A stretch of DNA of 64,000 nt, taken from NCBI RefSeq assembly GCF_000189755.2, contig NZ_KI912183.1, positions 1,800,257 to 1,864,256 on the forward strand, read 5' to 3'. The DNA is from Desulfotomaculum nigrificans DSM 574. GTDB lineage: Bacteria > Bacillota > Desulfotomaculia > Desulfotomaculales > Desulfotomaculaceae. The notes beneath the pieces are model-generated. The model had not been told where the DNA came from. It saw nothing but the letters and a program-made list of their open reading frames with translations, and searched no databases. Shown here piece by piece: positions 47,873 through 53,674 of the stretch; position 1 is the stretch's first letter, and the number at the start of each line of letters is the position of its first letter. The position numbers were made by a program, and so were the translations under genes.

Positions 47873-49354
47873 TTAGAGATTACCTAATAGCCGTGACACA
47901 AGAGGATCAACACTATTTATTTCTACGTTAGATTTAGTAATAACATCTCCAAGTTTCTCTAATTCCGGTAAGCTCGGAAAAGGGATATTGTTTAATTCAA
48001 ACGCATTAAGCTGATTTGTCCCACTAATTATTCTAATATACCGTTCATAGTAAGAAGAATTTAATAAGGCATATATTCCTAGAAGGACTTTTTCGCTAAT
48101 ATCATCAGGGTATTGTAGATAGTTAATATGATTTTCAATACCCACAAAATCATAATCTGCCTGCCGGGTATATAAATTTACTTTTACTCTTTTCTTCCCT
48201 TCCCTACTCAATACCCTTTTTACAAGGATGTAGCTTTTATTAGGCAATAACCGTGGCTTGATAGCTTCTTCTGCTTCAATGTACTGGGGAAATTTTTTAG
48301 TATGTTTCGGCCAACTAATATATGTTTCGTTAAAATTACATGACCACAAAAGAGGAACAGTGCTTGGAGTTGAAGTTTCCCTTATGTATTTTTTAGTTCG
48401 GAAATCAACAATAGGACCAGTACAAAATTTCATTCCGAAATCGCTTAAAGTTTGTGGATATCCATCTATCTTTTTTACCAAATCTACATCACTTTGGCAC
48501 AGTGGAACCCGAATATAGGTTTTTTCATCTATAACAACCTGATTTTCAGCTTCAAAGTTATTAGTATTGGGTAAGTCATCAGAACTTTCTGATGAACTAA
48601 TTTTAATATGGTTGTTTTGGATACCTTTAACCAGCTTTACAATTATTATTTCCTGTATAATTTCACCATTGAATATTTTATATCTGGACTTAAAAAGGTG
48701 AATATAACTTATAGAAGCATTATTTAACATCCATAGACGAAACTTATTGAAATATTTTCCGCTCAAGAAGCTTCTTGGCAAAATAAATACTAACTCGCCA
48801 GAAGCCTTTAATAATCGAATGCTCATTGCGAGGAAAAGAAAGTATGCATTACATTGGCCAAAAATAATAGAACTCATTATGGTTGCTTCTTCAGCATCAT
48901 TTCTTAGTTTTTGATAGGGGGGATTTCCAATAATTATGTCATATTTAGGCTCACATTCCTCCGTCCAACAATCTTGATTATAAGAAATAAAATTTTCATT
49001 ATATATCTTATAAATCAAATGAACTTCCTTCTGACTACAAAACTCTTGGATCAGCCTTAAATTTTCCTCCAAAACTGGCAATAAACTCTCATCATTCTCA
49101 AATAAATCCACCGAAATATGTTTAACGAAAGATTCTTTGATAATCTTCTCTATTAATGCTAATGTTAGTAAACCTGTTCCAGCACCGGGGTCAAGAATTG
49201 AAATGGACTTATTGTGAATTTCAAACAACTCTGCCATAAAGGAACCCACTTTATATGGAGTTAAGAACTGACCCTTCATCTTTCTAATACTTTTTGGTGT
49301 CTTAGCGGTATACTCATTTGAGTTATTCAATACTTGTTTTATTACTTGTTGCAT
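47873..49354 (-). CDS. N6-adenine DNA methyltransferase (Eco57I-like)
   Basis: 493 residues. SAM motif I is DPGAGTGLLTLAL near residue 55, and the catalytic NPPYQKL is near residue 145. The C-terminal half is a target-recognition region ending with NSSYYERYIRIISGTNQLNA, as in Eco57I/TaqI-type enzymes. Gene start ATG has AAAGGA upstream. It follows the HEPN gene by 11 bp and completes a three-gene unit. It could modify host DNA, with the two other genes as the restricting part. Confidence 0.85.
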   Translation of the reverse strand: MQQVIKQVLNNSNEYTAKTPKSIRKMKGQFLTPYKVGSFMAELFEIHNKSISILDPGAGTGLLTLALIEKIIKESFVKHISVDLFENDESLLPVLEENLRLIQEFCSQKEVHLIYKIYNENFISYNQDCWTEECEPKYDIIIGNPPYQKLRNDAEEATIMSSIIFGQCNAYFLFLAMSIRLLKASGELVFILPRSFLSGKYFNKFRLWMLNNASISYIHLFKSRYKIFNGEIIQEIIIVKLVKGIQNNHIKISSSESSDDLPNTNNFEAENQVVIDEKTYIRVPLCQSDVDLVKKIDGYPQTLSDFGMKFCTGPIVDFRTKKYIRETSTPSTVPLLWSCNFNETYISWPKHTKKFPQYIEAEEAIKPRLLPNKSYILVKRVLSREGKKRVKVNLYTRQADYDFVGIENHINYLQYPDDISEKVLLGIYALLNSSYYERYIRIISGTNQLNAFELNNIPFPSLPELEKLGDVITKSNVEINSVDPLVSRLLGNL

Positions 49355-49365
49355 TCTATATTCCT

Positions 49366-50025
49366 TTAACTACTTTTACTTTTCAGATACAATTCATCCT
49401 CAGCTGCATTGAGAATAATATCCTTAAAATCTTCCATAATACCCATAATAATATCAAAGGTATCCATAAAATCATTTTTAGTTAAATTGGTTCTTTCTCC
49501 ATGTACTATCTCGTGTCGGTTTTTTAATAAGTTGAAGTCTATATAATTTCTCTTTGATTCAAAAGGTAGAAACTCTAACCCAATACTCTCCATTATCTCA
49601 CAGAGAACTTCAAAAGTAGGGTTTGATTCTGTAGAGATAATTCTATCATTATCACTATATTTAACAAAAAAGTGTTCCTCTTGTATTTGCTCTAGTTTCT
49701 CAAATAGACTCTTATGAACACTTACTTTTTCAGTCTTGCCACATTCGGTAAATTTTTTCTTTAATCTTAATACTAAAAAGTTATTTTTTATTTCCTTGCA
49801 AGGTACTTTTTTATAGGATACAAATACTACATAAAAATTTGACGCTAATCGTATAAAACCCTCAAAGTGTGCACATAAAAGAGCAATGCCGGCTCTAACC
49901 ATTACTGATTCATGCTCACCACTATTAATTATGTGTTTAAACTCTAGCAATTCTTTTTTTCTCCAAGATAAATCTTCATCAAGCTTATCTTGAAGTTTCT
50001 CAATCGTCTTAATTTTCATTTCCAA
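49366..50025 (-). CDS. MAE_28990/MAE_18760-like HEPN nuclease
   Basis: 219 residues, all-helical. The HEPN RNase motif R-x4-H is visible in LLKNRHEIVHGE near residues 172-183, and the N-terminal helix set with RAGIALLCAHFEGFIR is typical of the MAE_28990 family. Such HEPN proteins are candidate ribonuclease effectors in defence or toxin systems. Its ATG overlaps the end of the DUF262 gene by 17 bp, so translation is coupled. Confidence 0.8.
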   Translation of the reverse strand: MEMKIKTIEKLQDKLDEDLSWRKKELLEFKHIINSGEHESVMVRAGIALLCAHFEGFIRLASNFYVVFVSYKKVPCKEIKNNFLVLRLKKKFTECGKTEKVSVHKSLFEKLEQIQEEHFFVKYSDNDRIISTESNPTFEVLCEIMESIGLEFLPFESKRNYIDFNLLKNRHEIVHGERTNLTKNDFMDTFDIIMGIMEDFKDIILNAAEDELYLKSKSS

Positions 50026-51118
50026 AAACCTCTAAACTCATTAATGATAGAGATTTAAAACGACTAATAGGCCTAACGCCTCTTTTGGTACTTTCCTGGT
50101 ACTTAAAATTGGTGTATATATCCATAATCCTTCTCTTTACTTCCGAGGGATCGGTCTTTGATAGATCTTCGATGTTGTTACTTACCCCTAGTGTGATAGC
50201 CTCAAATGAGCCAATAAGAACTGGCCCCTCAAATTTTTCTTTGACACTGTTATACTTTTTGAATACGTCTTCCCCAAGTAACTCGTACAAAAACTCGAAT
50301 GTTTTATTAAAGTCATTTTTATCTTTTTCTAAACTATAATTATTATCCTGGGCTAACCTGACAATCTCATCTGTCAAAAATTGGTTTATGTTTTCATCCC
50401 TACTAATAGCGTCAAAATCGCAATTTCTTGCAACCAAATATCTAATAATAAATTCCATATCTCCTTGTTCCTCTAGTGAGTTATCTGACAAGGGTATGCA
50501 ATTTCTAAAACTTTGATTATCATTCATTTCACGCAACTGTCTATAGAAAGGCTCATTTATCATAACTAATAAACAATTTCTAATTTCCTGATGGCTTAAG
50601 CGAGTGCCACCCGTGTTTAACCTTTGAAACAATTCATACTTAGCATTTATGTCACTGGTTTTATCAATAATTGTAATATCTAGCTTAGAACGCTTAATAT
50701 ATCTTCTTTGGGCTTCGGTTAAAGAATTATCAACATCTTCCGACTCCCACCACTTACCTTCAAGCGATGGGAGAAACTTAGTTTTTGTTAGTCTACTTGC
50801 CCCCTGAACATTGCCATTTTCATCCTTTAAGACTCCCATGAACTCAAATATAGTTGATAGACGTTGCTGGCCATCAATAACATCCCAAACACCATTTTCA
50901 TTTTGGGACACAAATATTGGAGGGATCGGTATTCCTAATAAAATAGACTCAATTAGATTTGATTTTTGACTTGGGTCCCACCTGAAAATCCTTTGGAATT
51001 CTGGGTGAACGTCTAGGTCACCCTCATTGTATATACTTGCAAGCTCACCAATAGACATAGGATATTTATCAGTTCTAATTTCCTTAGCCATCTTATCTAT
51101 TTCATTTTGAAGCGGCAT
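50009..51118 (-). CDS. DUF262 (GmrSD-N-like, ParB-fold) protein
   Basis: 369 residues from the ATG at 51118 (AGGGGGG upstream). The DUF262 core includes PEFQRIFRWDPSQKSNLIES near residue 42 and the NTP-site DGQQRLSTIFEF near residue 85. Family members use NTPs in restriction systems of the GmrSD type or as regulators. There is no DUF1524 HNH nuclease domain after it, so the nuclease activity may come from the HEPN partner. First gene of the three-gene cassette. Confidence 0.85.
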   Translation of the reverse strand: MPLQNEIDKMAKEIRTDKYPMSIGELASIYNEGDLDVHPEFQRIFRWDPSQKSNLIESILLGIPIPPIFVSQNENGVWDVIDGQQRLSTIFEFMGVLKDENGNVQGASRLTKTKFLPSLEGKWWESEDVDNSLTEAQRRYIKRSKLDITIIDKTSDINAKYELFQRLNTGGTRLSHQEIRNCLLVMINEPFYRQLREMNDNQSFRNCIPLSDNSLEEQGDMEFIIRYLVARNCDFDAISRDENINQFLTDEIVRLAQDNNYSLEKDKNDFNKTFEFLYELLGEDVFKKYNSVKEKFEGPVLIGSFEAITLGVSNNIEDLSKTDPSEVKRRIMDIYTNFKYQESTKRGVRPISRFKSLSLMSLEVFGNEN

Positions 51119-51197
51119 ATTAACCCCCCTATCCACATTTTATGCAAATAATATTGTTATTTCCACAACCGTAGTATTTATCCTCTACAATAACAAA

Positions 51198-51576: not shown

Positions 51577-51822
51577 TTATTTCTCCTCCCTGTTGTTATG
51601 CTGAAACGCTCTTTCATAGAGGTAGTCAACATAAGATTTTAGGCCATAGCCTGATGGAGACTCAGGGATCTCTTCCAACCACTGTCTCAAAAGATTTGCA
51701 TATGAAATAATTACTGGTTCATCATGCCTTGTGTATATACTATCATGTAGATATTGGTTCAGTAAAGCATCATAGCAACTGCTCAATCTCCGCAGCCGCT
51801 CCCCTACCAGCGGGAGCAGCAA
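51577..51822 (-). CDS. Small hypothetical protein, N-terminus possibly replaced
   Basis: The 81-codon frame encodes a helical protein containing NLLRQWLEEIPESPSGYGLK. The first dozen codons are GC-rich and belong to the hairpin region that begins near 51785, so the original 5' end was probably cut off by whatever inserted there. No ribosome site precedes the first start codon. It is coupled to the gene that follows. Confidence 0.45.
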   Translation of the reverse strand: MLLPLVGERLRRLSSCYDALLNQYLHDSIYTRHDEPVIISYANLLRQWLEEIPESPSGYGLKSYVDYLYERAFQHNNREEK

Positions 51823-51855
51823 ACGCTGCCCCCACAGGGGGCAAAGCCCACCTTG

Positions 51856-52173
51856 CTAGGTGGGCCGTACCTCCTCCGGCTGGCGGTGGGCGCTGCGCTC
51901 GGCGGCGTAGTAGGCCAGCTCGGCCATCGCCACGAAGGCGATGTGCTTGCACAGCACCTTTCTCACCAGGGCATCCTCGCAGCTGCAAAAGCAGCCAGTG
52001 GGCTGAAGGGTGACGCCGTACTTCTTGCCTGCATATTTGACGTAGCCGGACACATCCACCCCACGCTGGACAAACACCCGGTGCTTGACTTCAAACTGCC
52101 AGCCTTGCTGCAGGCCCACCAGGGCGCGGGCGAACCTACCTTCTTCTACCTTAGACAGCACTTTTCTCAACAT
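51856..52173 (-). CDS. Small SWIM zinc-finger protein
   Basis: 105 residues from the ATG at 52173 (GGGAGG upstream). The SWIM motif CxCx(n)CxH is present as CFCSCEDALVRKVLCKH near residues 71-87. The first half (MLRKVLSKVEEGRFARALVG) is helical. SWIM domains bind DNA or protein, often beside SNF2 helicases, but no helicase gene is here. GC content is well above that of the neighbours, matching the hairpin array upstream and suggesting shared origin. Confidence 0.72.
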   Translation of the reverse strand: MLRKVLSKVEEGRFARALVGLQQGWQFEVKHRVFVQRGVDVSGYVKYAGKKYGVTLQPTGCFCSCEDALVRKVLCKHIAFVAMAELAYYAAERSAHRQPEEVRPT

Positions 52174-52257
52174 ACTTGATAACCTCCCGTTTTTCTTGCC
52201 ACATAACGGAGCCGGTGCCGGGGCTGTCAAGGGTGGAGGCGGCAGCCGGAAAGTGGA

Positions 52258-53600
52258 GAAAATTTTTATTAACCGGACCCCAAAGCCCCGCTCCCTTCGG
52301 TTAATAAAAATTTTCGGAGTGGCCCTTGATAGGCCCGGCATTGCCGCTGCACCTGGCACTATACTAGCTTTGGTTTTGGTGGCCCGCTCGCCGCCAAAAC
52401 CCATCGGAGCGGGAAATGCTAGGACTACAACTAAAGTATGGAGCGGGGAGCAGCGGCAAAGGCGTAGTATCATGGAAAAAGCGGGAGATGACCGATGCCC
52501 CCTCCAACGGGAGGGGGATAGGGGGTGGGTTTTCCGATGAAGGACCCCAAAGGGTTGACTTGCACCATGTCCCGACCCCGAAGGCCGACCCTAAAGAGGG
52601 ACATTTCAATGGCCGGCAGCCGCCGGCCCTATGCAGGGGGCTTCATTGGTAGTGCAGGGGTATGGGCTAAAGCAAACCAATGGCAGCAGCCATCGGTGGA
52701 TGCAGAGGCGTTAGGGTTATAGCGGTGCTATTGCTGCAGCGGCAGGAAGCCTTTGTGCCGACCCGAAAGACTGGCCAGCGGAGGCTGGCACGAAGGCTTG
52801 ACCCCAGGGAAAGGCAGGGTGCCTGACCCCAAATATTAGACCCAATAGCGGAAGGCACGCTGCCGCAGGTAACCGGGACCCGTAAGATGGGCGAGCACTT
52901 TGCCAGCGGACCGTGACCCAAGAGCATTCCCCAAAAGCGGGTCGCTGGCAAGGTGCGGCCTTTGACCCCTGAGGATGACCCCGATAGGCCGGAGCTGACG
53001 CAAGGAGTGCAGCGGAGCGAAACGGAGTGCGTGAGCGGAGGCCAAGACCCCAAAGCCCGGCGAGCACTCTGGTGGGAATTCACGGCCACAGAGGTTTACC
53101 CCAAAGGAATTCCCACCAGTGTGCGGCTTAGGACCTAAAAGAAATGCCCCGGCAGGCCGGAGCACTTTGGCGTAGTGGAGTGGAGCGGCAGTGAACGTAG
53201 CGGGGCTGGCGGGCTGGACCAAAAAGGCTTACCCCAGAGCAAGTCCGCTGGCCCGGCGGAGGGAACGGTAGCGGAACGGAACGTAGCCAATGGGCGGAGG
53301 CCAAGACCCCAAAGCCCGGCGAGCACTCTGGTGGGAATTCACGGCCACAGAGGCTTACCCCAAAGGAATTCCCACCAGTGTGCGGCTTTAGGACCCAAAA
53401 GAAATGCCCCGGCAGGCCGGAGCCCTTTGGCGTAGTGGAGTGGAGCGGGAGTGAACGGAGCGGGGCTAGTGGGCTAGACCCCAAATCTTTGCCCAAGAGC
53501 AAGTCCGCTGGCCCGGCGGAGGGAACGGTAGCGGAGCGGAATGCAGCCAATGGGCGGAGGCCAAGACCCGTAAGCTGGCAGTCAGCGGGAGCGGGGGTAG
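52258..53600 (+). repeat. GC-rich array of hairpins with a GACCC(C)AAAG core
   Basis: At least a dozen inverted repeats of different arm sequence share an inner segment beginning GACCCCAAAG or close variants. Clear cases are 52258-52315 (18-bp perfect arms), 52567-52604, 52749-52797, 52813-52864, 52896-52955, 53069-53119 and 53328-53378. The core occurs about 16 times in 1.3 kb. GC content is far above the flanks. Long frames on both strands are side effects of composition. Probably structured RNA or mobile palindromes; not recognised. Confidence 0.7.
53035..53553 (+). repeat. Tandem 259-bp direct repeat
   Basis: GCGGAGGCCAAGACCC recurs at 53035, 53294 and 53554, and the intervening sequence is repeated with few changes, giving two full units and a partial third. 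Each unit contains a CTGGTGGGAATTC/GAATTCCCACCAG hairpin and a GAGCAAGTCCGCTGGCCC module. Confidence 0.85.
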
Positions 53601-53674
53601 ATACCCCGTGCACCACCGCAAATCTATTTCCCCCCCGCTCCCGGTGTCTACCGACCCAACCCCAACAACCAAAA

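Follow-up and report, generated by a model that had tools for sequence, protein, structure and literature searches.

Organisation of the locus

The window analysed here, a stretch of 64,000 nt covering positions 1,800,257-1,864,256 of a 3.05-Mb genome, contains a run of palindromes built around a short fixed core, next to a small gene for a SWIM zinc-finger protein. The question is what such a run is for, and whether it is best read as a repeated structured RNA or a family of palindromic mobile elements, as the original prediction had it. The repeat array proved to be real, its interpretation changes, and the prediction is partly supported. Fixed-core hairpins whose arms differ and nevertheless pair were found. 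What is best understood, however, is something other than a repeated RNA: the hairpin at 52258-52315 is predicted to form the A/T-rich tip of a promoter that serves the SWIM gene and is made of folded single-stranded DNA. The region as a whole is probably a small mobile unit with a promoter built to work solely on single-stranded DNA. Its main parts are as follows.

47873-51136, minus strand: adjacent defence genes (Eco57I-type methyltransferase, RiboL-PSP HEPN protein, GmrSD/NsnA-like protein)
About 51772-53661, no strand assigned: whole putative mobile unit (SWIM gene, promoter fold, array), from homology edges to genomes G003, G006, G005 and G008
51856-52173, minus strand: SWIM zinc-finger protein gene, 105 aa, CxC...CxH
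52540-53661, plus strand: hairpin array with oriented GACCC cores, forming the right end of the unit (from stems, cores and empty-site homology)
53011-53575, plus strand: two tandem copies of a 259/260-bp hairpin module, ~90-92% identical

The predicted SWIM gene adjoining the array was confirmed by Pfam (E=2.6e-6). Homologues were found in 21 of 100 sampled relatives, with C63, C65, C75 and H77 invariant among them. The AF2 model of the protein has a pLDDT of 92; a fold search of the PDB gave no significant match, and there is a weak, non-significant resemblance to dsRNA-binding domains.

The hairpin array

The stretch 52258-53660 holds eight stems of at least 11 Watson-Crick pairs, against a mean of 0.21 and a maximum of 3 in 300 dinucleotide shuffles, and all four hairpins originally quoted are present among the following.

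52258-52275/52298-52315: hairpin, 18/18 pairs
52372/52401: hairpin
52747/52799: hairpin
52813-52824/52853-52864: hairpin
52895-52908/52943-52956: hairpin
53064-53081/53107-53124: hairpin
53323/53383: hairpin in the 259-bp tandem copy of hairpin 53064-53124
53586/53643: hairpin

Cores of the form GACC(C/T)NNRRG occur 14 times on the plus strand and never on the minus strand of this stretch (shuffles: mean 0.55, maximum 4), and the earlier count of about 16 is reached once truncated (R)ACCCCNNAG copies are included. Some cores do lie directly after a left arm, where most had been placed; the usual form, however, is a double core that fills the loop, GACCCNNRAG-NNNT-RCCCNNNAG, and other cores sit between stems. 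The GC content of the array (55-59%) is far above that of the left flank (31-42%), as had been claimed, while the right flank, at 55%, is not unusual. A coding role for the repeats, the outcome that had been named as refuting the idea, was rejected because the tandem period of 259 or 260 bp is not a multiple of three and the longest open reading frame matches no protein family. Further copies of the module are present in genus-mate G003.

The mismatches indicate which strand folds. Inside the stems to the right of the promoter they comprise GG 15, TT 15, GT 12 and AG 6, with AC, AA and CC all at 0, and this absence identifies the plus strand as the folding one. The figures refer to internal mismatches only; a count that included loose ends gave G.T equal to A.C (16:15), a balance that we judged to be an artefact of end extension, and a looser stem rule left the bias weaker yet present (GT 23, GG 31 and TT 20 versus AC 12, CC 6 and AA 4). 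Folding the array as RNA in 200-nt sliding windows gave no clear strand signal, because the windows cut hairpins. By eye, a single mismatch adjoining CAY/RTG recurs in the stems. When the SWIM gene is set on the minus strand, adjacent cores are almost always on the plus strand across the order. In distant units, left-hand arrays are located beyond the end of the SWIM gene, and right-hand arrays (e.g., L065, L073, L075) have a second kept TATAAT-like box between two hairpins (GGTATAATAAAGCCACACATGACC).

Dispersed copies of the core

The core was also sought elsewhere in the genome, as the original prediction had proposed, and the 23-nt double core GACCCNNRAGNNNTRCCCNNNAG was found in 75 copies genome-wide versus 0 for a reversed-pattern control. 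It is present in 33 of 113 genomes of the class (control 0 in every listed genome), including genus-mates and family members with no SWIM match (G001, G004, G009). Inspected copies lie in mosaics of ~34-nt units and heptads, many of them apparently intergenic; copies of this 23-nt element (e.g., L112-L141, L187, L188) come with (GCTAACA)-like heptads and inverted-facing units. Within rRNA operons (e.g., L112, L113, L118, L122), copies are found in the spacers immediately before the 23S gene and between 23S and 5S, and also adjoin the 16S end. A solo hairpin with a double-core loop (GGGGACATACCTCC...AGGAGGTGTGTCCCC) occurs in nearly identical form at L172-L179 (G059, G051), seven times in one genome and once in another, and looks like part of a mobile element.

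REP/BIME elements with RAYT transposases are likewise dispersed, imperfect palindromes with a fixed motif. A REP/RAYT origin was rejected: at 30 Y1 (PF01797) transposase loci there are almost no cores within 1.5 kb. The array also differs in having a SWIM gene of its own.

Dispersal of the core, even in genomes without SWIM, would also suit a functionless pile-up of palindromic mobile repeats, in which only the promoter and the SWIM gene matter; the 259-bp tandem expansions and the solo hairpins of other genomes point the same way. Against this stand the orientation of the core relative to SWIM, which is almost fixed across the order, and a mismatch pattern that suggests selection on the plus-strand fold. 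We regard a pile-up as somewhat unlikely.

Extent and distribution of the unit

Judging from sequence comparisons, the SWIM gene and array together behave as a mobile unit. In genomes G005 and G008 the MCP gene of the window is present without the unit upstream of it, and their empty-site homology begins at 53661, the right end of the unit; G006 carries a close unit at a different locus. Elsewhere, units were encountered in decayed or partial form: a fragment close to a tRNA-like end at L029 (G000:2946431), a SWIM gene retained after loss of the array at L062 (G006:603657), and a fragment of array without SWIM at L227 (G008:2329.2k).

In the same genome, a prophage-like region 46 kb from this unit holds a second one, again made up of a SWIM gene and an array. 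A composite island ended by these two units was rejected, since the intervening 46 kb resembles ordinary chromosomal genes. SWIM units that share a contig often face each other with their arrays inward (7 of 10 neighbouring pairs; none of the 10 back-to-back), in a small post-hoc sample from G000, G006, G011, G051, G075, G079 and G093; given the ordinary 46 kb, such facing pairs were not used as evidence for a transposon. At L066 (G011:C57, 1.8-13.1 kb), an MspI-type restriction-modification pair lies between two identical inverted units on a 13.6-kb contig.

Units are often beside defence genes, to judge from the neighbours of units only. At other loci these include HsdMSR, an SNF2/type III-like set with a Dam-type methylase, the MspI restriction-modification genes between two identical inverted units, GmrSD, Eco57I, TIR and AAA_15. 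The unit is spread over one bacterial order, and named records with SWIM homologues include Sporotomaculum, Desulfoscipio, Desulfotruncus and Desulfallas; in a phylum-wide sample, the single outlier outside the order was a draft genome with a second-type unit. Searches of PLSDB, INPHARED and IMG/VR returned no SWIM homologue, and a phage or plasmid origin was rejected on that basis, yet one paralogous unit does lie in a prophage-like region. Among the neighbours of the unit, which were read by eye and in part scanned, no relaxase, oriT or conjugation gene was recognised, nor was a rolling-circle rep or relaxase gene noticed among the listed open reading frames near units.

A predicted promoter fold upstream of the SWIM gene

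The region upstream of SWIM is a conserved inverted repeat of 300 nt, with the following parts.

52183-52487, plus strand: entire inverted-repeat region, predicted folded single-strand promoter (Frpo-like); the plus strand would be the SWIM template when folded
52216-52233, plus strand: 5' (template) arm of the upper stem, TGCCGGGGCTGTCAAGGG, pairing with 52323-52340; the arms covary across loci
52258-52315, plus strand: A/T-rich hairpin (18/18 bp), UP-element-like tip; A/T stem in every aligned locus
52326-52331, plus strand: -35 element TTGATA in the 3' arm (52323-52340), duplex in the fold; CCCTTGA(C/T) in aligned loci
52341-52459, plus strand: side hairpin in the -35/-10 spacer, arms 52341-52350/52450-52459
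52468-52473, plus strand: -10 element TATCAT opposite a non-complementary arm (bubble); TATAAT, TACAAT or TATCAT in nearly all loci
52482-52487, plus strand: base of the fold, CGGGAG, pairing with CTCCCG of the SWIM leader within 52183-52189

Aligned loci have in common a 5' half of CCTCCCG...CGGTGTCAAGGG followed by the A/T-rich hairpin, whose loop here encloses one GACCCCAAAG core (52276-52285), and a 3' half of CCCTTGACACCGGCA-(side hairpin)-AGGCGGCGG-TATAAT-GGAAAGAGCGGGAGG. The SWIM start codon is the ATG at 52173 and the complement of its ribosome binding site is CCTCCCG at 52183-52189; in intact loci, both start and binding site fall on the complement of the 5' arm. For 23 loci, the predicted folds together with the aligned arms rebuild the -35 and -10 on the single strand, and in the alignments the -10 hexamer faces a non-complementary arm while the sequence on either side of it is paired. 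Among 100 genomes, the pattern GTCAAGGG-N56-86-CCCTTGA with an A/T-rich centre occurs at SWIM loci only.

The side hairpin is kept in all intact-fold loci except two, with varying sequence and with a length that, in nearly all loci, ranges from 17 nt to well over 100 nt. Without it, the -35 to -10 distance is 15 to 17 nt in the loci read by eye, and in the window 9+8=17 nt (52332-52340 plus 52460-52467). L105 and L217 have no spacer hairpin and a plain 19-nt spacer, which might serve as a weak ordinary promoter. A promoter scan found no ordinary double-stranded promoter for SWIM. Double-stranded DNA would present the same bases without a working promoter, since the hairpin interrupts the plus-strand spacer and the minus strand has no -10.

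This arrangement bears on whether plus-strand transcription of the array yields a large, structured non-coding RNA like GOLLD, ROOL or OLE, with SWIM as its partner protein. Those RNAs are also hairpin-rich, kilobase-sized and sometimes found in prophages, and the strand specificity of the fold, the covariation of the hairpins, the retained protein gene and a TATAAT-like box oriented into the array would all be in keeping with such an RNA. However, the side hairpin breaks the plus-strand promoter spacer in nearly all loci, and the scan found no other, usual promoter for an RNA at the array start. The proposed search of Rfam gave no match at the gathering score, with chance-level hits only at low thresholds, and a conserved overall layout is lacking: hairpin number and order vary widely among close relatives, and the array is nearly gone at some SWIM loci. 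Array stems are also much longer and more perfect than those of rRNA. We consider a non-coding RNA unlikely and favour single-stranded DNA signals as the nature of the array, because the promoter logic suggests DNA and there is no ordinary promoter.

The two arms of the promoter fold have changed together. Over 22 distinct arm pairs and the eight positions after the -35, 7.05 of 8 are paired with the true partner versus 3.85 of 8 with swapped arms, a pairing reached in 0 of 20,000 shuffles, which ignore relatedness between arms that differ widely between genera. Wobbles in the same arm pairs comprise 21 G.T versus 4 A.C, so the plus strand is what folds, and the plus-strand fold was more stable than that of its complement in 12 of the 12 loci folded. 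It is very improbable that the inverted repeat is an ordinary double-stranded operator or cruciform, for example for SWIM autoregulation, as its symmetric TTGAC elements on both strands might suggest, given arms that change together between loci, which is not required of an operator, an excess of G.T over A.C on one strand only, and a -10 kept on one arm only.

Comparison with single-strand promoters and origins

Single-strand promoters, known as Frpo or ssi, were reportedly described on F and ColIb-P9 by Masai and Arai in 1997. Frpo folds from single-stranded DNA and drives leading-region genes (PMC9849209, PMC11541004), and the sso elements of Gram-positive plasmids and ICEBs1 act in a related way (PMC4595007). 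As a positive control, the F-plasmid regions upstream of ssbF (Frpo2) and of the gene taken as ygeA (Frpo1) were oriented and folded by the same kind of script as the SWIM loci. The control has an A/T hairpin, GCAAAATTTTTTACC/GGTAAAAAATTTTGTG, at its tip with the -35-like ACCCTGGACA adjoining; its -10 region is unpaired in part, its 3' arm carries additional bases, and it prefers the same strand as the SWIM loci (-56.3 vs -50.7). The F Frpo sequence ACCCTGGACA compares with ACCCTTGACA, and the A/T hairpins look near-identical. The A/T hairpin and ACCCTKGACA of the SWIM loci resemble Frpo, as judged by eye; the A/T likeness could be convergent.

In both systems a single strand forms a stem-loop with a -35, a -10 and an A/T-rich, UP-like hairpin, the folded strand is the template of the gene, and the -10 region is incompletely paired. 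Architecture, conservation, arm covariation, folding strand and likeness to Frpo are computed properties of these loci. The SWIM unit differs in being chromosomal, in a Clostridia-type order and with no recognised conjugation genes, in driving SWIM where Frpo drives ssb, psiB or ygeAB, and in having a large side hairpin in the spacer and then a long array of fixed-core hairpins. We conclude that the promoter would work in a Frpo-like manner. It lacks the leading-region setting, however, and for that reason we do not count it among the plasmid Frpos: neighbours are defence or prophage genes, and the SWIM homologue is absent from PLSDB plasmids. The sso elements of rolling-circle plasmids and ICEBs1 are similarly hairpin-rich and found in Gram-positive lineages, and are active only as single strands and read by RNA polymerase, as the SWIM promoter would be. 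In contrast, no Rep or relaxase was noticed beside the SWIM unit, and the RNA made here would be an mRNA with a ribosome site rather than a primer alone.

Proposed mechanism

The predicted structure, a promoter folded as in the F plasmid during mating, suggests that the SWIM gene is expressed solely from DNA that enters, or is present, in single-stranded form. On a single plus strand, the inverted repeat 52183-52487 would fold, its A/T stem providing an UP-like element; TTGATA would become a duplex -35, the spacer would extrude its side hairpin, and TATCAT would be left unpaired as a ready-opened -10. RNA polymerase could then use the opposite arm as template and run straight into the SWIM gene, so that the small zinc protein would be produced before a second strand is made, whether the single strand stems from DNA uptake, transfer or excision. 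The array lies downstream on that strand and may consist of folded single-strand signals, either protein-binding or priming hairpins, perhaps bound by SWIM via their GACCC loops or by the priming machinery of the host. What we infer here is transcription, the single-strand trigger, the role of the array and the function of SWIM. Points against this reading are the missing conjugation genes and plasmid or phage homologues, the plain 19-nt spacers of L105 and L217, the chance that the A/T likeness to Frpo is convergent, and the position of the left-hand arrays in distant units. A bolder version, which we put forward tentatively and hold to be rather doubtful, is that a chromosomal unit of defence islands senses its own single-stranded state: single-stranded DNA, on entering, would fold and yield SWIM, and SWIM would bind the GACCC-loop hairpins on that same strand, thereby protecting, converting or installing the incoming island.

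The single-strand promoters in the literature cited above belong to conjugative plasmids and allow establishment and anti-defence genes to be expressed early; the folded single-strand origins described there are those of rolling-circle plasmids and ICEs. Here the same architecture is chromosomal, tied to one uncharacterised protein and often near restriction-modification or defence genes. The conserved promoter fold offers a search handle for further genes expressed from single-stranded DNA. If the proposal is true, it would suggest that defence islands, too, go through a single-stranded stage with gene expression of its own.
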